Assembly (NCBI RefSeq): GCF_900198835.1
Contig: NZ_LT900021.1
Location: forward strand, 372,001 to 436,000
Direction: 5' to 3'
Length of the DNA stretch: 64,000 nt
Source: Thermococcus henrietii
Lineage (GTDB): Archaea > Methanobacteriota_B > Thermococci > Thermococcales > Thermococcaceae
Shown: piece after piece, positions 11,472-23,656 of the stretch
Position numbering within the stretch: position 1 is the stretch's first letter
How the letters are laid out: the number at the start of each line of letters is the position of its first letter
Program-made: the position numbers and the translations under genes
Notes under the pieces: model-generated
What the model saw: the letters and a program-made list of their open reading frames with translations, nothing else
Told to the model about the DNA's origin: nothing
Databases searched by the model: none

Positions 11472-13391
11472 TCAGCGCCTTCCGTACTTCCTGAGGATTA
11501 CGGCCAGGATTACAAGCGCGGCCAGTATCATGCCGATGCCCAGATAAGTGGCCCCGCTCCCCTTCGTCACGGTGACACGGACCTGCTCCTGAGTTTTCTT
11601 CTGGTCGCTCTCGGCGGTGAGGGTGATGAAGTAGTCGCCGGCATCGATGTTTCCAGGGACGTTTATCTTAACCGTGAACGTGACCTCTCCGTTTTTCTCC
11701 ACGCTGGCCACACGCTCGGGAGTTACCTGCACGTTCCAGCCCTGCGGGGCATCGACTTTGAGTTTTACGTTGGTCAGCGGGCTTGTTCCTGTGTTGTACA
11801 CTCTGACGCTCAACGTCGTCTCTCCTCCCGCCTTAACCTTTACGCTGTACCTCTCAAGACCAATCGCTATCCCGTAGCTCCCCATGAGCTGGGCTCTGAG
11901 CGTGACTTTCTTCTCTACGTCGCTTCCCAGCGACCTTACCGTCAGGTTTGCCGTGTAGTTCCCGAGCTTTGCCGTGTCGGGAGGTATTAGAATCACGTAC
12001 AGCCTCTTCTCCTTGCCTGCATCTACGTACGTTGAGCTTATACCCGTCCTCGACTCCGGGCTTTCCACTATCATTCCGCCCCAGTTGGGGGGCACGCGGA
12101 GCGTTAACGAGTAGCTGTCGCTCTCCTTTCCGAGGTTCCTGAGTATTACCTCGTAGGTCAGCGTCTCTCCGAGAACGACGCTCTTCGAGGGTGCCGGCAC
12201 GAAGACGTCGAAGTAGTACGGGAGCTTCTCCAGATTGACCGTGACTTCCGTTTTTTCTCCCGCCTTCAGTTGTACCGTCTCGGTGACCTTTTTGTAGGCT
12301 TCCTTGGAGACGATAAGCTTGTAAGCTCCCTCGGGCGCGTGGAGGACCGCGGTTCCGTCGGGAAGCGTCACGGCTTGGGTGGTGATTCCACCGCCGGTCA
12401 GCTCGACCTTAGCACCTCCCACGTAGGTGCCCGAGCCCTCATCCACGACTCTAACGACAAGCGTGCCGTTTTCCCCAGCGTGGGTCTCGGTCACGTAGAC
12501 GTGAACCCAAACGCTCTCGTTTCCCGCGAGTATCTTGAGGGGATGGTCGCCTACGCTCGCGTTGCTCGGAATGCTCACGAGAGCGGTTACTGTTCTCTCC
12601 CCGCTCACCCTGACGATTCTAACCGGTGAGCCGCCTGCGAGGAACCTAACGCTCCATCCCGGCGGTGCCCGGGCGCTCAATGGGACGTCAGTTGGGGTTG
12701 ACGAAGAGAGGTGAAGCGAGAAGCTGACGTTCGTCCCAGCAGCGGCCTCCTTCCCCGGGCAATCAACGTACGCTTGGAGGGGTCTTCCCTGGACGACTGC
12801 CAGGATTGTGACGCTTGCGTTTCCGGCCCCAACTTTTATCCTGTAAGTTCCTGGTGTACTTCCGGCCTTCAAGACGAGGGTCAGGGGAAAGCTCTCTCCG
12901 TGCTTCAGGTAGAGGCCGAGAACGCTGACGCTGCCGGATTTGAGGATTCCAGTCCACCCTCCCGGGACCTGAACGGAAAGGGGGACGTAGCCGGACTCTC
13001 CGAGATTCTTCACGGTCAGTCCTATTCCCACCTCTTCCCCTGGCGACAGCAGTACCTCGTGGATTTGGGTGCTCAGCTCGACGTGGGTCTCGCCTCCGGT
13101 AAGCTCCACCCGTTTTCCTATGAAGAACAGCCTTGCCTGGCCCCTGTCGGGAAACACGCTCCCGACGACGATGGAGAGGTTGTTGATTGTAACGTTGTCC
13201 CCAAAGGAGAGCACGTAGAGAGTTCCGTTGATTCTAACGGCCGCCCCTCCGTTTGAGGAAACGTCCACCAGCGTGACGTTCATGCCGTTTACTTTCACGG
13301 TCTCGCCGATGCTGAGCGTCACTCCCACCGTCTCAGCCAGAACGCCCGGAAGAAAAAGGAGGAGTATAAGCCCTGCAAGGGCCCGTCTCAT
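11472..13391 (-). CDS. Anchored NEW3-domain surface protein of an ABC module
   Basis: 639 residues: signal peptide (LAGLILLLFLPGVLA), a large extracellular part built of repeated immunoglobulin-like NEW3/CARDB-type domains (VGIGLTVKNLGESG, LTYEVILRNLGKES, TLSVRVYNTGTSP), one carboxypeptidase-regulatory-like domain (LVVRVVDEGSGTYVGGAKVEL ... EGAYKLIVSKEAY, about 310-390), and a C-terminal transmembrane segment (IGMILAALVILAVILRKYG). It sits last in a three-gene unit with an ABC-2 permease and ATPase, 5 nt after the permease stop; the permease stop codon is part of its ribosome binding site (AGGTGA). ATG 13391 is chosen over GTG 13400. It is probably a cell-surface partner of the transporter; substrate unknown. 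Confidence 0.75.
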   Translation of the reverse strand: MRRALAGLILLLFLPGVLAETVGVTLSIGETVKVNGMNVTLVDVSSNGGAAVRINGTLYVLSFGDNVTINNLSIVVGSVFPDRGQARLFFIGKRVELTGGETHVELSTQIHEVLLSPGEEVGIGLTVKNLGESGYVPLSVQVPGGWTGILKSGSVSVLGLYLKHGESFPLTLVLKAGSTPGTYRIKVGAGNASVTILAVVQGRPLQAYVDCPGKEAAAGTNVSFSLHLSSSTPTDVPLSARAPPGWSVRFLAGGSPVRIVRVSGERTVTALVSIPSNASVGDHPLKILAGNESVWVHVYVTETHAGENGTLVVRVVDEGSGTYVGGAKVELTGGGITTQAVTLPDGTAVLHAPEGAYKLIVSKEAYKKVTETVQLKAGEKTEVTVNLEKLPYYFDVFVPAPSKSVVLGETLTYEVILRNLGKESDSYSLTLRVPPNWGGMIVESPESRTGISSTYVDAGKEKRLYVILIPPDTAKLGNYTANLTVRSLGSDVEKKVTLRAQLMGSYGIAIGLERYSVKVKAGGETTLSVRVYNTGTSPLTNVKLKVDAPQGWNVQVTPERVASVEKNGEVTFTVKINVPGNIDAGDYFITLTAESDQKKTQEQVRVTVTKGSGATYLGIGMILAALVILAVILRKYGRR

Positions 13392-13396
13392 GTTAA

Positions 13397-14413
13397 TCAC
13401 CTTATCTCAGCTCTCACGAACCCGAGGTACGCCAGCACAAACCAGAGGATTATGTAGGCGAACAGCGTTATTATCTCCTTCTTCGCAAAGGAGAGGCTTT
13501 CGCTCAGGCTGTACTTTGGAACCTTTTCCGTGGGGGAGTGGGGGATGAAGTACGATTCGCTGGACTCCTTGTACGGGTCCAAGACGTAGTCCGATATGAC
13601 CTGGAAGTCGTTCATGGGTGACAGCATGGTTATGTAGTACTCGGTCTTCCAGTACCTCCTGCCCCACTCCATGGTCTTGTTCTCGTACTCCTCCATGAGC
13701 TTCTCGTACTTGTTGAGCTCGGCCAGGGTAACGTTCTTGCTGGAGTGTATCTTCTGGGACATTGCTTGGAGCTCCGGCGGCATCTTGGGCTGCGGTCCGA
13801 CGATGACCCTCGCCACCACCGGGGCCACAGTCATTATGACCACTATGAATATCAGGAACATTACGAGGGAGTACATCAGGGCGTTGCCGCTCTTCTTTGC
13901 GTACGCCGAAAAAGCCACCGCCATGGTGAAGAACAGGAACAGATACAGGTAAGCGAACAGGAAGTACGTTATCAGCCTCGTGTAGCTGTCTATGGTTACG
14001 CCCGCCCATACGAGCATTCCCGTGACGACGAGGCCGGTTACAAGGACGGCAAATGCGAGGGTTATCGCACCCCCAAGGAGTTTGCCGAGGATTACCTGGT
14101 CTCGGAAAACTGGGTGGCTCATGAGAACCTTGAGCGTCCTGTCCTCCCTCTCGCGCGTTATGGCGTCGAAGCCGAGGGCCAGTGCGAAGATTGCCCCGAC
14201 GAACTGAAGGTTCGACGTAACGCCGAACATCACCTCGTAGACCTTGCGCGTGCTCTCACCGGAAGACATTCCACCCAGGCTTATGACTTCTATGTTGAGC
14301 TTAACCTGGATGAGGGCCAGCACCATCACCACGAGCAGGAACCCGAAGAAAATCAGGAAGCGCCTGCTCGTCAGGTAGTCCCTAAACTCCTTCTCGGCTA
14401 TCGCCCCAATCAT
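13397..14413 (-). CDS. ABC-2 type transporter permease
   Basis: 338 residues. An N-terminal transmembrane helix (RFLIFFGFLLVVMVLALIQ) is followed by a 40-residue external loop, then five more helices, a second large external segment (about 205-300, lysine-rich), and a last helix (LFAYIILWFVLAYLGF). The cytosolic ITREREDRTLKVLMSHPV after the second helix is the classic ABC-2 motif. It pairs with the ATPase whose gene overlaps its start by 4 nt (ATGA). With the NEW3 protein it forms an exporter or surface-assembly module of the GldA/NosY type; the cargo is unknown. Confidence 0.88.
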   Translation of the reverse strand: MIGAIAEKEFRDYLTSRRFLIFFGFLLVVMVLALIQVKLNIEVISLGGMSSGESTRKVYEVMFGVTSNLQFVGAIFALALGFDAITREREDRTLKVLMSHPVFRDQVILGKLLGGAITLAFAVLVTGLVVTGMLVWAGVTIDSYTRLITYFLFAYLYLFLFFTMAVAFSAYAKKSGNALMYSLVMFLIFIVVIMTVAPVVARVIVGPQPKMPPELQAMSQKIHSSKNVTLAELNKYEKLMEEYENKTMEWGRRYWKTEYYITMLSPMNDFQVISDYVLDPYKESSESYFIPHSPTEKVPKYSLSESLSFAKKEIITLFAYIILWFVLAYLGFVRAEIR

Positions 14414-15333
14414 TTCGCTCCCCTCCCGTAGACGAGTTCCATGAAGATTTCCTCGAGGCTGGGCTCGTGGAGGTGAACGTCGAGGACGGTGTACCCTTTC
14501 GCCCTCAGCTCCGTTACGAGGTCCTCCCTGATGTCCCTTTCAGCGTACACTACCAGTTTCCTGTCCCCGCTCCTCCTCCACTCTATCACGTTCGTTTCGA
14601 GACCCTCAAGCTCTAGGGGTTCCTTAGTCTCAACGGTTATCAGGTACCTGCCTTCCATGAACTTCCTCTTTATCTCCTCCTGGCTCCCGCTTATGAGGAG
14701 CTTACCCTGGGAGATTATGCCGATTTCATCGCTGACCTCTTCAACCTCCGCGAGTATGTGGCTTGAGAAGAATATCGTCCTGCCGTCCTTCTTCAGTTCC
14801 CTCACAAGCTCCCTAAGCTCCACGGCCCCCCTCGGGTCGAGGCCGTTCGTTGGCTCGTCAAGGAAGAGTATCTCCGGGTCGTTGAGGAGGGCCTGCGCGA
14901 GCAGAAGTCTCTGCTTCATTCCGGTCGAGAATCCCTCAACCTTCCTGTCCGCAACTTCCTTCAGGCCGACGAGCTCGAGGAGCTCCCTCGCCCTCTTTTC
15001 CGCCTCGTTCCTTGGCATTCTGTAGAACTTGGCGAAGTAGAGGAGGTTGTCGATTGCGCTCAAGTTCGGGTAGAGGCCGCCCTCCGCCGGCATGAAGCCC
15101 GTTATCCTCTTGACTTCCACGGGCTTTTCCATCACGTTGATTCCAGCGACGTGCGCCGTCCCTTCAGTCGGTTCTACGAGCCCAAGGAGCATAAGGATTG
15201 TCGTCGTTTTACCAGCCCCGTTGGGGCCCAAAAATCCATAGACCGTTCCCTTCTTAACCCTGAGGTTGAGGTGGTCCACGGCGACCGTTCCATCGTAGAT
15301 TTTGGTCAGATTTTCTGTCTCTATCGCGTACAT
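14410..15333 (-). CDS. ABC-2 type transporter ATP-binding protein
   Basis: 307 residues: Walker A GPNGAGKTT, signature FSTGMKQRLLLAQAL, Walker B EILFLDEPTNGLD and switch His in FFSSHIL. A C-terminal DUF4162-like extension of about 80 residues (ITVETKEPLELEGL to the end) is common in this class. It energises the permease encoded next. ATG 15333 is chosen because GGTGGT lies 4 nt upstream; ATG 15345 gives four extra residues and lacks a site. First gene of its operon. Confidence 0.92.
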   Translation of the reverse strand: MYAIETENLTKIYDGTVAVDHLNLRVKKGTVYGFLGPNGAGKTTTILMLLGLVEPTEGTAHVAGINVMEKPVEVKRITGFMPAEGGLYPNLSAIDNLLYFAKFYRMPRNEAEKRARELLELVGLKEVADRKVEGFSTGMKQRLLLAQALLNDPEILFLDEPTNGLDPRGAVELRELVRELKKDGRTIFFSSHILAEVEEVSDEIGIISQGKLLISGSQEEIKRKFMEGRYLITVETKEPLELEGLETNVIEWRRSGDRKLVVYAERDIREDLVTELRAKGYTVLDVHLHEPSLEEIFMELVYGRGAK

Positions 15334-15391
15334 AAAGACCACCATGGGAAATGGAAATTGAAAACATATAAACCTTTCTGCAACTTCAAAA

Positions 15392-16582: not shown

Positions 16583-17086
16583 ATGAGCCAGGAACTCCGC
16601 TACCGCCGTGCCTCCGCATGGGAATACGACCTCATACTCCGCGAGGCCGAGAAGTACGGCGAGTTGAAGCACCACTTCTTCGCCGTTGTCGAGGGTAAGT
16701 TCAGGGACGTTTACGCCGTCAACGAGCGGGTCTGGAGGGAGCTTGAGGGGTTGAAGGTTAAGCCCTACGCTTACGGCACCTTCGTCGGCACGATTAAGGT
16801 TGACAATTTGGTTGAGAAGTTCTACCCCAACGTCGAGTTCTTCTACTTCGTTGAGGTCGAGAAGAACTACGCGGTGCTCAGTCCAAAGGCCGGCTTCCTC
16901 TTCACCACGGGCAAGGACGTCCCGAGGAGTGGCGTGCGAAAGTACGTCTGGCAGGGGACGAAGAAGCTCGTAATCTACGACGAGAACGGGATTATCCTCG
17001 GCATTGGCAGGATAAACCCCGAAAGCAGGAGGAAGTTCATCCTGAACGTCACCGACATCGGGGAGTTCCTGAGACGGAAGAGGTAG
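16583..17086 (+). CDS. NIP7-like PUA-domain protein
   Basis: 167 residues. The C-terminal half ([20 protein letters not shown], then [15 protein letters not shown], and TDIGEFLRR at the end) follows the order of the PUA RNA-binding domain in NIP7-type proteins, where KxxVWVKPGAEQSFLYG and ADIGEYVR occupy these places. The N-terminal half would be the pre-PUA domain. An RNA-binding role in ribosome biogenesis or tRNA modification is likely; the exact partner is unknown. GGTAGTGAC before the ATG is a weak site. The neighbours give no further clue. Confidence 0.7.
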
Positions 17087-17397
17087 AATAACAACCTGCC
17101 TTAACCAGTTAGGGTGGGTTGTGCAGGAGAAATAAAGAGTGAAAAAGTTGTTTGGTTTATCCAACAGTCACAACGAGGGCATAGCCGTCGGTTGTTTTAG
17201 GTTCCGTCATCCTTATCGTTTCTTTTTTGGTGTTGGACGCCACTCCAGCGTTCCGAGGCCTTTGAGTATGCTGGTGGGTGATTCTGTCGATAATTAATAA
17301 TTTGTAACCTCATTTTTGTATTTCTCTTTAGTAAAATATTTTTATTTAATGAAAAACTTTATATATTTTGATTATATTGTAATAATGAAAACCTTTG
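17087..17397. other. AT-rich intergenic region with a possible gene remnant
   Basis: The left half has a normal base composition and contains a minus-strand reading-frame fragment (see 17157-17310). From 17281 the sequence becomes very AT-rich (AATTAATAATTTG and onward) and ends in the strong TATA box ACTTTATATATTTT (17356-17369) of the small secreted-protein gene. The composition change suggests an old insertion or deletion boundary. Confidence 0.5.
17157..17310 (-). pseudogene. Possible C-terminal remnant of a degraded gene
   Basis: On the minus strand about 50 codons are open and end in TAA at 17157. The last 27 residues (from SNTKKETIRMTEPK to DGYALVVTVG) look like real beta-strand protein sequence, and a second frame (ILKGLGTLEWRPT) also looks protein-like just upstream, as after a frameshift. 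No start codon with a ribosome binding site exists, and the upstream side runs into AT-rich DNA. A degraded gene is a reasonable guess, but the evidence is thin. Confidence 0.25.
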
Positions 17398-17799
17398 ATG
17401 GAGGTGATACGTACGAAAAAGCTCGTAAAACTAAGCTTGCTCTTCTGTCTCGTGGGTTTGGTTTCCATAGCCAGCGTGTCCGCGTGGACCTCAAAGGCCC
17501 TCATCCCATCGTCTGGATGCTGGAGAATGTACGACCAGGACACCGACACTCCCTCCTGGGGTCAGGATGAGTGGGTCTGGGCCGGCGTCTCTGGATGGCT
17601 GAACATCTGCGACGGGAGAATAACCGTCGATACTTCAACCGTGAAGCATGTTGCGTACTGGTCAGGCGTCAAGGTGGACAGGTCCAAGGTGCAGGAATAC
17701 ACTGGAACCAGGGTCTCCTTCACAAAGATACCCTGCGAGAGGTATAACGGGGAGGAAGGGGAGGCTTTTGCATTGATTCCCCACTTCTACAAGCACTGA
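17398..17799 (+). CDS. Small secreted cysteine-containing protein
   Basis: About 133 residues from ATG 17398. The n-region RTKKLVKL is followed by the hydrophobic core LSLLFCLVGLVSIA and a cleavage site near SVSA-W. The mature part of about 100 residues holds three Cys (SGCWRM, NICDG, IPCERY) and many Trp. No family is recognised. The start is odd: the best ribosome binding site, GGAGGTGA (17400-17407), is 5 nt before an ACG codon (17413) and no ATG/GTG/TTG follows it at the right place, while ATG 17398 and GTG 17404 overlap it. The TATA box at 17356-17369 predicts a transcript starting near 17388-17392. It leads a run of co-directional genes for an ABC-2 transporter. Confidence 0.65.
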   Translation: MEVIRTKKLVKLSLLFCLVGLVSIASVSAWTSKALIPSSGCWRMYDQDTDTPSWGQDEWVWAGVSGWLNICDGRITVDTSTVKHVAYWSGVKVDRSKVQEYTGTRVSFTKIPCERYNGEEGEAFALIPHFYKH

Positions 17800-17814
17800 C
17801 CTGGGTGACGCCGC

Positions 17815-18825
17815 GTGCGGGGTAAAATAACTCTTGCCCTCTGGGTTTTAATTTTTTGTCTGGGGGTCACTACAGTATCAGCCGCAGTCCCTGCCTGGCT
17901 CAAACCCGGAACCTACGTTACCTACGCGGTCATCGTTCCGAATGACGCGAGGTTCGGGACAAACGACATCATGGTTAAGATTGATATGCTCAACGAGCGC
18001 TCCTTCGAGGCGCTTTCTCGTTACCTTCACGTCTCGCGGGATGAGAACTACGTTACCGCCCTCTGGCCGATGGGGACGTCTTACCTCACCTTTAGGGTTC
18101 TCTCCGTGGAGAACGACACGGCCAAAATCCCCGTCAGGCTTGAGCTCCACGACGTGGCGATTGAAAGGCCCGACCTCGCGAACGCGAGCGTGCTGGTGCT
18201 TTCCGAGGTTCTCACCCTCGACCTTAGAACCGGCATGTACGTTTGCAACGGCACGCCTGTCGGCAGGCCGAGCTTCTTTGTAGACCCCTCCAATCCGCCA
18301 GGCCCCGGTGCCATCCTCCTGAACGTCACGGTTCCGGAAGGGGGAGACTGGGTGATGAGGGTTAAAAACCTGAGCTACTCCCGCTACCGTGGCTTTGAAA
18401 TCCTGACGCACCTGCGCACCTTCCATCCGCCTTTCATCTACCTCGAATCCGACGCGGTGAGGTTCAACCTCCACGGCCCGGACTACAGCTTCTCCGGGGG
18501 CACTTCTTTCTCGGCCCTCTACGACCCCTCAACCGGCCTGATGATAGCGTCCGACATGTTCTCAACCCCTCCCGAACTCGTTCTCATGGGCGTGGTTAGC
18601 TCCACGATGGAGGACGTGAACGCCTCGCGGGCCCTCCGCAAACTCCTCGCCGAGGACTCTAAGAAGCGCTGGCTCCAGGGCTGGAACCTCTTCGCGACAA
18701 ACGTGGAGTTCCCGAGGGAGCGCTCCTTTAGGGCGCCGGGCAGCCCCTTCGTTTACTACTTCGTCCTCGCGGTTCTCCTCGCCTTTGCGGTCGGTGTCAG
18801 GGACTTCAGGAGGTGGATTGGATGA
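17815..18825 (+). CDS. Membrane-anchored extracytoplasmic protein of an ABC operon
   Basis: 336 residues: signal peptide (ITLALWVLIFCLGVTTVSA), a beta-rich extracellular domain with several Asn-x-Ser/Thr sites, and a C-terminal transmembrane helix (FVYYFVLAVLLAFAVGV) with the short basic tail RDFRRWIG. No known family. GTG 17815 is preceded by GGTGA with about 6 nt spacing. It lies 15 nt after the small secreted-protein gene and its stop overlaps the permease start (ATGA), so it is part of the same transport unit. It could receive or hold the exported product. Confidence 0.7.
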   Translation: MRGKITLALWVLIFCLGVTTVSAAVPAWLKPGTYVTYAVIVPNDARFGTNDIMVKIDMLNERSFEALSRYLHVSRDENYVTALWPMGTSYLTFRVLSVENDTAKIPVRLELHDVAIERPDLANASVLVLSEVLTLDLRTGMYVCNGTPVGRPSFFVDPSNPPGPGAILLNVTVPEGGDWVMRVKNLSYSRYRGFEILTHLRTFHPPFIYLESDAVRFNLHGPDYSFSGGTSFSALYDPSTGLMIASDMFSTPPELVLMGVVSSTMEDVNASRALRKLLAEDSKKRWLQGWNLFATNVEFPRERSFRAPGSPFVYYFVLAVLLAFAVGVRDFRRWIG

Positions 18826-19592
18826 GGATTCTCCGCTGGGAGCTTGAGGACCCGCTCAACCTTGCCGCGTTCGCCTTCGGCTTCCTTCTCATCGGAACTT
18901 CCCTGTTCCTTAAGGGAATTCGGGTCTCAAATCACTTTATGGTATCCCCGCCGAGCGAGGACTTCATAAGGGCTTTCTCCTACAGAACCATGGGCGTCAG
19001 CGTTCCCCTTCTCTCGGACGAAGTTTACACCGCCTTCATGCTGACGGCGGTTCTCCTGGCGTCGCTCGTCCTGCGGAACGACAGGGACACTCGCTTCGCC
19101 CTCTCGCTCTACTCCCTCCCCGTGGGAAGGAAGAGGCTTGTCCTCTCCAAGGTTCTGGCGGTTTTCGTAATGCTCTTCGTCGCATCTTTCGTCCCGTTCC
19201 TTCTGACGGTCATCTACATCTTCGGCGACACCGGGAACTTCCTTCTTACGGTTCTGCTTTCAAAGGGCCTCCTTCCCTTATACCTGCTCTACTGGGCTTT
19301 GGCAGTGCTCTACGCGGTCGCGGTTTCCTCCTTGGTGGCCATGAGTTCCCCCAACACCTTCGTCTCGGTGATGGTCGGCCTCTCGGTTCTCTACCTGCCC
19401 CACTCGTTCGGAGTCTCTTCCCTGCCCCCGGCGGTTCTAAACTCGGCGGTATTCCACGCGTACACTTCAAGCGTCTCCCTTTCCCACTGGTTCATGAAAC
19501 TCCTCTCGTCCGCTTTCCTCTCCTGCGTTCTTCTTCCCTTCCTCCTCATCGCCATGACTCTCTACCTCGCGGAAAGGAGGGACGTCAGATGA
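18822..19592 (+). CDS. Compact ABC-2 type permease
   Basis: 256 residues with six transmembrane segments (LAAFAFGFLLIGTSLFLKG near the start; FVMLFVASFVPFLLTVIYIF; LPLYLLYWALAVLYAVAVS; VSVMVGLSVLYLP; AFLSCVLLPFLLIAMTLYL). The loop LRNDRDTRFALSLYSLPVGR after the second helix corresponds to the cytosolic ABC-2 coupling region. It is as short as the permeases of self-immunity ABC systems. ATG 18822 is chosen because GGAGGTG is 6 nt upstream and it overlaps the preceding stop; GTG 18813 is less likely. It pairs with the ATPase at 20005. Confidence 0.8.
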   Translation: MRILRWELEDPLNLAAFAFGFLLIGTSLFLKGIRVSNHFMVSPPSEDFIRAFSYRTMGVSVPLLSDEVYTAFMLTAVLLASLVLRNDRDTRFALSLYSLPVGRKRLVLSKVLAVFVMLFVASFVPFLLTVIYIFGDTGNFLLTVLLSKGLLPLYLLYWALAVLYAVAVSSLVAMSSPNTFVSVMVGLSVLYLPHSFGVSSLPPAVLNSAVFHAYTSSVSLSHWFMKLLSSAFLSCVLLPFLLIAMTLYLAERRDVR

Positions 19593-20008
19593 GGTTCATC
19601 AGGCTCATCCTCTTCCTCGTCGCGGCCTTCACGCTGGTGGCCCTCGCGGTTCAGCACGCCGAGCTCTCCAAGCCCTACTCCGACTTCGCGGTTGGGCCCT
19701 CCTGCGCGGTCGTCCCGTCGGCGAGGGTTCTCGTTCTCAACATGAACGGTCAGGGCAACTACTCCGTGACGTTCTACGACCCAGTTGAGAACCGGGTCGT
19801 TTACTCCTCCACGCTCTCTGGCTACGGGAGAAAGGTCGTGAAGTTCAGCCACTCGGGCCCCTACTGTGTCGTGGTCTCCTCCGAGGTGCCGGCTTCCGTG
19901 GCAATCTCGGGTCGGGAGAGCTACCCCTCTTCGAGGGCCCTCTCGATTGAGTACCTCGTGGGCGGCACCTCGGCGCTCCTCTTCGCCCTCCTGGGGGTGA
20001 GGAGATGA
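19589..20008 (+). CDS. Small 2-TM protein of an ABC operon
   Basis: 139 residues: an N-terminal hydrophobic helix (FIRLILFLVAAFTLVALAV), an extracellular beta-rich domain of about 85 residues with two Cys (PSCAVV and GPYCVVV, possibly a disulfide), and a short C-terminal hydrophobic segment (LVGGTSALLFALLGV). Not recognised. Start and stop overlap both neighbours by 4 nt (ATGA), so it is tightly coupled to the permease and ATPase genes and is probably a subunit or accessory of the transporter. Confidence 0.65.
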   Translation: MRFIRLILFLVAAFTLVALAVQHAELSKPYSDFAVGPSCAVVPSARVLVLNMNGQGNYSVTFYDPVENRVVYSSTLSGYGRKVVKFSHSGPYCVVVSSEVPASVAISGRESYPSSRALSIEYLVGGTSALLFALLGVRR

Positions 20009-20661
20009 TAATCCGCGCAAAGCACCTCACGAAGCGCTTCGGCCACGTAACCGCGCTCGACTCGGTGAGCGTTGAAATCGGCGGGGGCGTAACCTTAATC
20101 CTCGGGCCCAACGGCGGGGGCAAGAGCACGTTCCTGAACCTCTGCGCCGGAACCTACAGGCCGACGGCCGGGACGGTCAGAGTGTTCGGCGGCGACCCGT
20201 GGGCCGATGAAGAAGTCAGGGCGAGGTTCGGCGTCTCCTTCGACCCGCCTGCCCTTCCGAGACATAGAACGGGCCGTGAGTGGCTTGAGTTCCTGGCCGA
20301 AATCCGCGGCGGCTCCATTTCGGAGGTCGTTGAGGCGTTCTCCCTCGGGGGCTTTATCGACAGGAGGATTTCAACCTACTCGGCCGGAATGGCGAAGCGC
20401 CTGAGCATAGCCTCGGCATTCATCGGGGAGCCGGAGCTCGTCCTGCTGGATGAGCCGCTCGCGAACCTTGACTTTGACGCGATACCTGAAATAGCCGGTC
20501 TGCTGAGGCGGTTTGCCTCGGAAGGCCTGTCCCTCGTTGTGGTCTCCCACATATGGAAGCCCTTCGTCGAGTTCGCCGACAGGGCGGTTGTTATAGCCGG
20601 GGGGAAGGTGAAACAAGATGGCGACGTTGAGAAGGTTGTTTCTGCTCTCAATCTTATTTAG
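20005..20661 (+). CDS. ABC transporter ATP-binding protein
   Basis: 218 residues: Walker A GPNGGGKSTF, signature YSAGMAKRLSIASAF, Walker B ELVLLDEPLANLD and switch His in VVSHIW. It has no C-terminal extension, unlike the ATPase at 14410. It energises the permease at 18822. GGTGAGG precedes the ATG, which overlaps the previous stop. The 3' end overlaps the PEGA-protein start by 44 nt in another frame. Confidence 0.92.
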   Translation: MIIRAKHLTKRFGHVTALDSVSVEIGGGVTLILGPNGGGKSTFLNLCAGTYRPTAGTVRVFGGDPWADEEVRARFGVSFDPPALPRHRTGREWLEFLAEIRGGSISEVVEAFSLGGFIDRRISTYSAGMAKRLSIASAFIGEPELVLLDEPLANLDFDAIPEIAGLLRRFASEGLSLVVVSHIWKPFVEFADRAVVIAGGKVKQDGDVEKVVSALNLI

Positions 20662-22249
20662 CGTGCTGTTCGTACCGCTGGCGTCCCCAACGCCCGTGCT
20701 CTTTAAGTTCAGCGGACGGGTAAGGGTTGGGGATTTAAACGCGACCGCTCCGACCGTGCTGAACCTGAGCAACGGCAGATGGCAGGCTGAGCTGTCCATC
20801 GGAAACGTCACCCTCATCTTTAACCTGAGCGTTGGCGGTACGCCCCTCGTGGTTGAGGTGAACGAGTCACTCCTGAACGAATCCCTGGGCGGCTTCTCGA
20901 CCGCGACCGTTTTCTTAGGGGGAAGAGAAGTCCCCACCCCGAAGTCCGAGGAAACTCCGTGCATGTCAGCTCCCAACTGGACCGAGGGGGAAGGTGCGAA
21001 CTCGGCGATGGGGCCATCAGAACCGGTCCCCATGGAAACGGTTCTCTTCGCCTCGTGCCGCGTGAGGGACTACCTCCTCCTTCCAAGCGGTCTTCCTGTA
21101 GCCGCTGAATACGCAGGGGTCACAAAATACTGCCTCGTCAAAATTTCGGTGAGTAAAAGCGGCTGGAGTTCCTTCGGCGGCTGTTCTAGGGAGCCCATTG
21201 AAAACGCAGTAACCCCAGCTCCAGTGAGGATACTCTCAAGGCCGGCCAACGCCACGGTCTACGTCAACGGCTTCCATCTTTTTGGGGAGTGGTTTACCCC
21301 GATGAGGCTCTATCTCCCCTTTACTCCCCTGCTGAATTCGTATAACATCTCCCTTGGTGCCAACGGCTATCCGTTTGTCTCCGGCATCGTGGTTTCCGCT
21401 GGGGGAAACGTCACGGTCTTCGCCGACCTCTCCCTGCTGTCGCGGGCGGTTTCGGTTCATCCTGAGGCCGGAACCCTTGAGGTCTCGACGAGGCCCTCCA
21501 ACGCAAGTCTGGCGATTTTTGCGGGGAATCGGAAGGTTTTCTCAGGAAAGAGTCCGCTCAGACTCATCCTTCCTGCGGGCACCTACACGGTCAGCGCTTC
21601 CCTTCGGGGCTACGGCGGCGTTGTGAAGAACGTGACGGTTCCGGCCAACGGAAGCGCCTCGCTGAACCTGGCCCTCAGCCCCCTGCCGGCCAGACTCAAC
21701 GTGAGCACCTCTCCTCCCGGTGCTCTCGTTCGCGTCGGGAACAGGACCTGCACCACCCCGTGCTCCGTGAACCTAACTGCGGGCGTCTACAACGTTTCGG
21801 CCGCGCTCAATGGGTATCTCCCAAACTCCACCCTCGTCTCGCTGTCTCCCAATACCTCTGCTCATGTTTTCCTGAGATTAGTTAGGAAGCCAGTCCTCGA
21901 AGTTGTGACGTCCCCTCCTGGTGCGGCGGTCTCGGTGGGCGGAAAAACCTGCCTAACTCCCTGCAGCCTCCTCCTGGCCCCTGGAAACTACAGCGTGAGG
22001 GTTGAGAAGGAGGGATATGAGAGTGCTTACCTTCAGGTTTCCCTTCAGCCCGGAAAAACGGTCAGAGTAAACCTCTCCCTCACGGAAACGGGAATTCCCC
22101 TGGGTACTACCTCATCCTTTTCCCCCACCTTCGAAAGTTCTGGAGCTGAAACGCCATCAGAGACAAAAAGCGCAGGCTTTTCCGTGCTCCCTGCGCTTCT
22201 CATCGTGGTCGTGGTTTTGGCTGCGCTCCTTCTCTGGAGGAGGGGCTAA
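20618..22249 (+). CDS. PEGA-repeat surface protein
   Basis: 543 residues: signal peptide (LFLLSILFSVLFVPLAS), an N-terminal domain of about 180 residues, four PEGA-like repeats beginning near residues 201, 285, 357 and 425 (for example LNVSTSPPGALVRVG and LEVVTSPPGAAVSVGG), and a C-terminal anchor (LPALLIVVVVLAALLLWRR). The last two repeats each carry a C-x3-C pair (TCTTPC, TCLTPC), so extracellular disulfides are likely. PEGA domains are beta-sandwich modules of surface proteins. Its gene overlaps the ATPase gene by 44 nt with GGTGA 7 nt before the ATG; it would be the surface partner of this ABC module. Confidence 0.8.
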   Translation: MATLRRLFLLSILFSVLFVPLASPTPVLFKFSGRVRVGDLNATAPTVLNLSNGRWQAELSIGNVTLIFNLSVGGTPLVVEVNESLLNESLGGFSTATVFLGGREVPTPKSEETPCMSAPNWTEGEGANSAMGPSEPVPMETVLFASCRVRDYLLLPSGLPVAAEYAGVTKYCLVKISVSKSGWSSFGGCSREPIENAVTPAPVRILSRPANATVYVNGFHLFGEWFTPMRLYLPFTPLLNSYNISLGANGYPFVSGIVVSAGGNVTVFADLSLLSRAVSVHPEAGTLEVSTRPSNASLAIFAGNRKVFSGKSPLRLILPAGTYTVSASLRGYGGVVKNVTVPANGSASLNLALSPLPARLNVSTSPPGALVRVGNRTCTTPCSVNLTAGVYNVSAALNGYLPNSTLVSLSPNTSAHVFLRLVRKPVLEVVTSPPGAAVSVGGKTCLTPCSLLLAPGNYSVRVEKEGYESAYLQVSLQPGKTVRVNLSLTETGIPLGTTSSFSPTFESSGAETPSETKSAGFSVLPALLIVVVVLAALLLWRRG

Positions 22250-22271
22250 CCTTGTTGAATTTTCTAACCGC

Positions 22272-22330: not shown

Positions 22331-22341
22331 GGGTGACGCTC

Positions 22342-23088
22342 ATGATTAGGAAGGTCAAGACCGGCATTCCGGGCATGGACGAAATCCTTCACGGGGGGAT
22401 TCCCGAGAGGAACGTCGTCCTGCTCAGCGGCGGGCCGGGAACCGGCAAGTCCATATTCAGCCAGCAGTTCATCTGGAACGGCCTCCAGATGGGCGAGCCG
22501 GGAATCTACGTTGCCCTTGAGGAGCACCCGGTTCAGGTGAGACAGAACATGGCCCAGTTCGGCTGGGACGTCAGGAAGTACGAGGAGGAAGGCCTTTTCG
22601 CGATGGTTGACGCCTTCACCGCTGGAATCGGCAAGAGCAAGGAGTACGAGAAGTACATCGTCCACGACCTGACCGACATCAGGGAGTTCATAGACGTCCT
22701 CAGGACGGCCGTGAAGGACCTCGGAGCCAAGCGCGTTGTTATTGACTCGGTTACGACTCTCTACATCAACAAGCCCGCGATGGCGAGGAGCATCGTCATG
22801 CAGCTCAAGCGCGTTCTGGCCGGTCTCGGGGTTACGAGCATACTCGTGAGCCAGATAAGCGTCGGCGAGCGCGGATTCGGCGGACCGGGTGTTGAACACG
22901 GCGTCGACGGCATAATCAGGCTCGATTTGGATGAGATTGACGGCGAGCTCAAGCGCTCGCTGATAGTCTGGAAGATGCGCGGAACGAGCCACAGCATGAG
23001 GAGGCACCCCTTCGAGATAACCGACAAGGGAATCGTGGTTTACCCTGACAAGGTGCTGAAGAGGAAGACCGTTGTTGAGATTGAGTGA
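22342..23088 (+). CDS. KaiC-like RecA-superfamily ATPase
   Basis: 248 residues, a single KaiC domain. It shows [17 protein letters not shown], Walker A GGPGTGKS, the catalytic-Glu segment YVALEEHP, Walker [10 protein letters not shown], and the family ending [18 protein letters not shown]. Archaeal single-domain KaiC-like proteins are signalling or regulatory ATPases of mostly unknown role; related ones act in archaellum control (ArlH) or repair (RadA). ATG 22342 is preceded by GGTGA at 5 nt; GTG 22333 is inside that site. It is co-directional with, and 22 nt before, the HTH/coiled-coil gene. Confidence 0.88.
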
Positions 23089-23110
23089 AAACTGAAAGGG
23101 GGTGAGAGGT

Positions 23111-23656
23111 ATGGAGGTCCCGCTGAACCCGATTGGAAGGGAGGAGATACACAGGCTCGAGAGCATACTACTCTTCGCGACGCTCTTCAGGCCCGAGGTC
23201 ATAGAGCTCATCAAGGACCCGGCCGAGAGGCTCACCTGGGTCGACAGCCTCGCCGTTGCAGCTGGAGCGATAGCGAGGGAGAAGGCTGGAATGACCGTCA
23301 GGGAAATCGCCGAGGAACTCGGCAGGACTGAGGCTACCATAAGGAAGCACCTCAAGGGCGAGACGAAGGCCGGTCAGCTCGTCAGGGAAACTTATGAACT
23401 CATAAAGCAGGGCAAGCTCGACGAGCTCGTCAGGAACGTTGAGGTTCTAGCTAAAGGAGGTCAGCTCGTTGCCATGGAGGAGTATGAGAAGCTCAAGCGC
23501 GAGAAGGAGGAGCTCCAGGCAAAGCTCAACGAGCTCCGGGAGCAGGTCGAAAAGCTTGAGGAGCAGAACCGCGAGCTCCAGGCGAAGCTTGAGAACGTCA
23601 GAAGGGTTCTAGGCGATGCACTCGAAAGGATAAGGGAAATAGAGAAACTGCTGTGA
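23111..23656 (+). CDS. HTH and coiled-coil regulatory protein
   Basis: 181 residues. A helical N-terminus is followed by a helix-turn-helix at about residues 62-85 (TVREIAEELGRTEATIRKHL), then a helical linker, and from about 120 a long coiled coil (YEKLKREKEELQAKLNELR and onward) for oligomerisation. It is probably a DNA-binding partner or regulator of the KaiC-like ATPase encoded just before. ATG 23111 is preceded by GGGGGTGAGAGG. It is convergent with speD, leaving a 1-nt gap. Confidence 0.75.
   Translation: MEVPLNPIGREEIHRLESILLFATLFRPEVIELIKDPAERLTWVDSLAVAAGAIAREKAGMTVREIAEELGRTEATIRKHLKGETKAGQLVRETYELIKQGKLDELVRNVEVLAKGGQLVAMEEYEKLKREKEELQAKLNELREQVEKLEEQNRELQAKLENVRRVLGDALERIREIEKLL

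Follow-up and report, generated by a model that had tools for sequence, protein, structure and literature searches.

A secreted protein and its co-varying anchored neighbour in a strain-variable transporter module of the Thermococcaceae: a candidate toxin-immunity locus

The window analyzed here, a 64,000-nucleotide stretch of contig NZ_LT900021.1 from the closed, 2.16-Mb genome of Thermococcus henrietii, contains at 17356-22249 an operon of six plus-strand genes. In order, these encode a small secreted protein, a secreted ectodomain with a C-terminal transmembrane (TM) anchor (here termed anch), an ABC-2 (ATP-binding cassette) permease, a protein with two TM segments (2-TM protein), an ABC ATPase and a PEGA-repeat surface protein. 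Among related loci, the C-terminal half of the small protein varies together with the adjacent anch, and the small gene decays in modules that keep anch and the ABC genes. This paired co-variation and asymmetric decay fit a polymorphic toxin-immunity pair accompanied by an ABC pump, and we propose, with belief and doubt about evenly matched, that it represents a polymorphic toxin-immunity locus of the Thermococcaceae, bacteriocin-like in nature.

The co-variation was analyzed by protein distances and Mantel tests in 12 modules that carry the same kind of small protein as the window (type 1) and have similar, near-constant ABC genes. Mean distances were low for the ATPase (0.14), the permease (0.14), the 2-TM protein (0.17) and the N-terminal half of the small protein (0.18), versus 0.47 for its C-terminal half and 0.55 for the adjacent anch. 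The C-half followed the adjacent anch (r = 0.88, p = 0.0005; partial r, controlling for the ATPase, 0.88) and not the ATPase (r = -0.04), while the N-half followed the ATPase (r = 0.70) and not anch (r = -0.02). In a window sliding along the type 1 protein, the correlation stepped from ∼0 to ∼0.83 at mid-protein. In the same seven loci, r was 0.94 for the adjacent anch versus 0.11 for the next anch downstream. A second kind of small protein (type 2; n = 14, truncated genes excluded) gave a similar result, its C-half correlating with anch (r = 0.91, p = 0.0002) and not with the ATPase (r = -0.01).

The same pattern is visible in the DNA of two loci (L074 and L080), in which a 5' part of 90% identity is followed by a block lacking detectable similarity, and then by 4 kb of 85% identity. 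The dissimilar block covers the second half of the small protein and runs into the beginning of anch. Together with the co-variation, this indicates that the C-half and anch are passed on together, as a cassette set in an otherwise stable frame. The breakpoint at mid-protein, the unlinked neighboring anch and the agreement of two unrelated families favor a functional pair, and the small protein and anch very probably constitute a specific one.

The genomic context of the pair was examined in gene maps of ∼80 loci, picked by their matches to the small protein or anch. A constant core of anch, permease, 2-TM protein and ATPase, with one to five anch genes, was observed across the Thermococcaceae, and nearly all modules had one permease and one 2-TM protein each. 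The mapped loci contained 52 intact small genes of types 1-4, of which 51 lay directly ahead of an intact anch; in the sole exception (L067), anch is split. By coordinates, type 2 matches sit directly 5' of anch, and for the match in genome G004 a broken anch lies further on (coordinates only). Extra tandem anch genes unaccompanied by small genes also occur, the largest expansion seen being L083 (G030:C4:40001-60000), in which five anch genes and four PEGA genes accompany just one small gene and one set of ABC genes. Away from an anch-ABC module, only broken copies of the small gene were found, namely type 1 relics in another genus of the family (L150 in G088 and L151 in G092), with neither anch nor ABC genes nearby; the ABC module, for its part, is not universally conserved, nor does it occur independently of small secreted proteins. 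On both counts, the association drawn by the sequence-only reading was not refuted.

In the first slot of the module, ahead of anch, small secreted proteins of five or more kinds occur. Across 115 genomes of the phylum, profile searches detected type 1 (remnants counted) in 26 and anch in 61; all of these genomes belong to the window's own family. Type 2 gave 24 matches in 23 genomes, type 3, counted at E up to 0.01, occurred in 16 (one match, the weakest, is a doubtful fragment) and type 4 in six. The fifth kind is confined to this genome, with no occurrence in any other of the 115; it may be a distant type 4, since the two share a short motif when aligned. Comparison of type 1 with types 2, 3 and 4 by hhalign revealed no relation. 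Genomes outside the phylum were covered only by a close-relative pattern search of a genome collection, in which relatives of the small protein appeared only in Thermococcus records. No relatives of the type 1 protein were found in the viral contigs or plasmids searched.

The presence of the module varies among strains, and its decay is asymmetric. The entire insert (17084-22255, no strand) is absent as a single block from close relatives: clean empty sites were observed at L206, L208 and L210 in genomes G012, G031 and G050, which lack it exactly or to within a few bases and in which the flanking DNA is 91-95% identical. In ∼11 ABC-bearing modules the small gene persists as a remnant only, and in most of these anch and the ABC genes are still open. 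In L131, both the permease is broken and the small gene carries an internal stop. No target-site duplication or end repeats were seen at the insert ends and no tRNA lies nearby, and on these grounds mobility by integrase, tRNA or target-site duplication was rejected. The genes on either side (16583-17086 and 22333-23656) are conserved and encode a 167-residue protein, a RadA/KaiC-like ATPase and a 184-residue coiled-coil protein. The first of these was present in 58 of 61 genomes of the genus, and the three genes are contiguous in many relatives that lack the module.

In terms of its make-up, every gene, overlap and signal or TM feature of the run described by the sequence-only reading was recovered on the plus strand. 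The small gene (17398-17799, 133 residues) is separated by 15 bases from anch (17815-18825), which is followed by the permease (18813-19592; 256 residues counted from the ATG at 18822), the 2-TM protein (19589-20008), the ATPase (20005-20661; 218 residues) and the PEGA protein (20618-22249). ATGA overlaps join anch to the permease (18822), the permease to the 2-TM protein (19589) and the latter to the ATPase (20005), and the PEGA gene starts within the last 44 bases of the ATPase gene, an overlap of that length. Hydropathy indicated six TM segments in the permease, two in the 2-TM protein (with an extracellular loop of ∼95 residues), and N- and C-terminal segments in both anch and the PEGA protein. 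Ratios of nonsynonymous to synonymous substitution (dN/dS) were 0.13-0.37 for the small gene, 0.20-0.33 for anch, 0.13-0.21 for the permease and 0.08-0.11 for the ATPase. Such purifying selection argues that these are real genes and, with the same order in dozens of genomes, places the run far beyond chance.

The small protein has a signal peptide with cleavage near ASVSA, leaving ∼100 mature residues, as had been proposed. All three cysteines noted earlier are present; only C41 and C71, in the conserved N-half, are invariant in the family, while C112 is private to the window protein and is replaced by Tyr in close relatives. The C-half is variable. At 17395-17416 an ACG stands where ATG would be expected before KKLV, as in relatives L061 and L064, while L062 has ATG. 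The start is likely the leaderless ATG at 17398, behind a TATA-like element (TTTATATATTTT, 17359-17370, plus strand) read from the sequence as a putative promoter; the element is identical in L061 and near-identical in L064. The AlphaFold2 (AF2) model of the type 1 protein is all-beta and of low confidence (pLDDT 70, pTM 0.52). The protein had no Pfam, NCBIfam or PDB sequence match, and its PDB fold search gave no match at E < 0.001. Similarly, no meaningful Pfam match was obtained for types 1-4 (types 2-4 scanned at E up to 10).

By comparison, the AF2 model of anch (pLDDT 89.8, pTM 0.81) displays a confident, beta-rich ectodomain and a C-terminal TM helix. Fold searches against PDB and viral structures returned nothing at E < 0.001, the PDB sequence search gave no match, Pfam scans of 33 anch proteins yielded single weak matches only, and no relatives were found among the phages searched. 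The permease matched Pfam ABC2_membrane_4 at E 1.5e-5, slightly under the curated cut-off, the ATPase matched ABC_tran (E 2.7e-22) and the PEGA protein matched PEGA (E 1.1e-43); the 2-TM protein matched no family. The ATPase is, by its sequence motifs, a member of a distinctive subfamily: among 74 homologues, GPNGGGKST was found in 72, together with YS[AS]GM and SHIW, and Asp replaces the Q-loop Gln. PEGA genes occur at varying places in type 1 modules and are absent from most other module types. A scan of the module proteins with PADLOC anti-phage models gave generic ATPase matches only.

The genome of T. henrietii carries four such modules. Besides the one in the window (small gene start near 389398), they comprise a second type 1 module with two anch genes (near 846784), a module at G000:C1:964247-967557 (L251 and L252) in which the private small protein precedes anch, permease, 2-TM protein and ATPase, and a type 2 module on the minus strand (near 1587674). 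Within the window, a second, divergent ABC exporter (11472-15345, minus strand) adjoins the module in several relatives. It consists of a DrrA-like ATPase (14410-15345), an ABC-2 permease (13397-14413) and a 642-residue PEGA-matching protein (11472-13400).

In a toxin-immunity locus, the small protein, judging from its signal peptide, would be exported by Sec and released. Its N-half would serve a function shared across variants, be it fold, targeting or mode of action, and the C-half would determine specificity. The adjacent anch, tethered outside the membrane of the producer, would bind that C-half and thus protect the producer, and by analogy with LanI/LanFEG the permease, 2-TM protein and ATPase may form a pump that clears bound or membrane-inserted toxin from the producer membrane. 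The C-half and anch would be swapped together as a cassette, as in the toxin C-terminus/immunity pairs of contact-dependent growth inhibition (CDI) and Rhs systems, and extra anch copies would represent orphan immunity genes.

Several points weigh against this proposal. Toxicity, like binding and the direction of transport, is something we infer, and the searches made tied the small proteins to no toxin by fold or sequence. A sizeable minority of modules have no recognized intact small gene, and several have no recognized small gene at all. In L066 and L067, an intact small gene stands beside a broken permease, and we count both against a strict immunity model. The Mantel tests ignore shared ancestry, the N-half of type 2 also tracks anch (r = 0.66, n = 14), and linkage of neighboring DNA alone could yield part of the co-variation.

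Co-variation and adjacency of the same kind would be expected if the small protein were a signal or surface mark, and the outward-facing anch its receptor, with the ABC genes relaying or regulating the response and the variants representing signal types in kin recognition. Such a ligand-receptor system seems unlikely, however: the constant genes of the module include no kinase, regulator or other gene for an output, and the loss of small genes with anch and ABC genes kept, the orphan tandem anch genes and the unrelated small proteins suit immunity better.

Alternatively, the module could assemble a surface structure, in which the small protein is a subunit, anch its anchor or chaperone and the PEGA protein a wall-facing component, while the ABC genes energize assembly or supply glycan or lipid. 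The exported parts are all membrane-tied or beta-rich, PEGA proteins accompany type 1 modules, and a subunit could co-vary with its own anchor. Nevertheless, we consider this explanation improbable, since presence or absence in near-identical strains, frequent decay of the small gene while the other genes are retained and the lack of PEGA in most other module types would all be odd for a structure, and the sharp split between the N- and C-halves would not be expected of one.

The idea that the module is a solute or drug exporter or importer, with anch as substrate-binding protein and the small protein as accessory, accords with the best score of the window ATPase, to DrrA-type drug exporters, and with the antibiotic resistance suggested in 2014 for operons that combine arCOG00194 ATPases with a permease of six TM segments and a putative, highly diverged binding protein (PMC4158269), but is very unlikely, as it leaves unexplained why anch should co-vary with one half of a secreted protein and why the two are strictly adjacent, and anch lacks similarity to known binding-protein folds. 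Those operons, part of archaeal dark-matter islands, resemble the module in their combination of genes and may include it; in contrast, the text of PMC4158269 proposes drug resistance and makes no mention of a small secreted protein, pairing or co-variation.

Among known systems, the toxin-immunity reading can be compared with LanI and LanFEG, the type to which the sequence-only reading had likened the run as a self-immunity layout. In LanF, Glu replaces the Q-loop Gln (the E-loop). Common to both are an outward, membrane-tethered protein, an ABC-2 transporter with a short ATPase, an adjoining small secreted product and an acidic substitution of the Q-loop Gln. Membership in the strict sense was not supported. 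LanFEG has two ABC-2 permeases (E and G) with ATPase F, whereas the module has one permease and the 2-TM protein; the ATPase scored 113.5 bits, far under the TIGR03740 cut-off of 309.75, with DrrA scoring higher; and its family has Asp, rather than the Glu of LanF, at the aligned Q-loop position. Moreover, anch is held by a C-terminal TM helix, in contrast to the lipid of LanI, and the product is unlike a lantibiotic in being ∼100 residues long, beta-rich and unmodified-looking. What endures from the sequence-only reading is the tie between a small secreted product and a short-ATPase/ABC-2 module with signs of self-immunity; the anchored protein, to which its layout gave no main role, proved to be the co-varying partner of the small protein.

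With CDI/Rhs cassettes (PMC3150448) the module shares a conserved N-part, a variable C-part exchanged with the next gene, and arrays of orphan partner genes. It differs in lacking a large delivery protein (the entire small protein has 133 residues), in an exported and TM-anchored partner as opposed to a cytoplasmic immunity protein, in its constant ABC module and in a toxicity that is only presumed. The module would work like LanI/LanFEG and CDI-type cassettes, and on the membership features tested it falls outside both. Lactococcin 972-like bacteriocins, such as streptococcin B (PMC11796350), likewise combine a small Sec-exported, beta-rich protein with predicted immunity and transporter genes, but their partner genes are different, and the swapped cassette of C-half and partner is a feature of the module. 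No small protein of types 1-4 gave a match to the lactococcin 972 family (Pfam and NCBIfam for the window protein, Pfam for types 2-4). With respect to the beta-sandwich of that family, the model of the window protein is all-beta, of low confidence and had no match in the fold search. The VARTIG locus of Thermococcales (PMC8416519) is also hypervariable and recombining, and has been proposed to act in conflict or self/non-self recognition. It is, however, centered on a large Ig-domain protein, and ABC and PEGA genes go unmentioned in the paper; identity with VARTIG was rejected, as no module protein has an Ig domain and the head gene product has only 133 residues. No link to a module could be established for a PEGA protein in the secretome of T. 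barophilus (PMC10667668).

Conflict among hyperthermophilic archaea is almost unstudied. No archaeocin of Thermococcales was described in the literature searched; prior mention is possible in mBio.00715-19, a survey from 2019 that dealt with polymorphic toxins and antimicrobial peptides of archaea. The module may, though here doubt slightly outweighs belief, represent the first polymorphic secreted-toxin system of the Thermococcales, in which unrelated small proteins share one architecture, a tethered partner co-diversifies with half of a toxin and a dedicated ABC pump rounds off the protection of the producer, all in the service of warfare between strains in hot habitats. As an immunity design, a partner anchored at the surface and co-varying with one half of a secreted protein would be unusual, and the proteins of the module must function at high temperature. 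The locus offers paired, testable genes in a genetically tractable group, with natural empty-site strains as targets, and, if killing is shown, it would constitute a new kind of archaeal conflict system.

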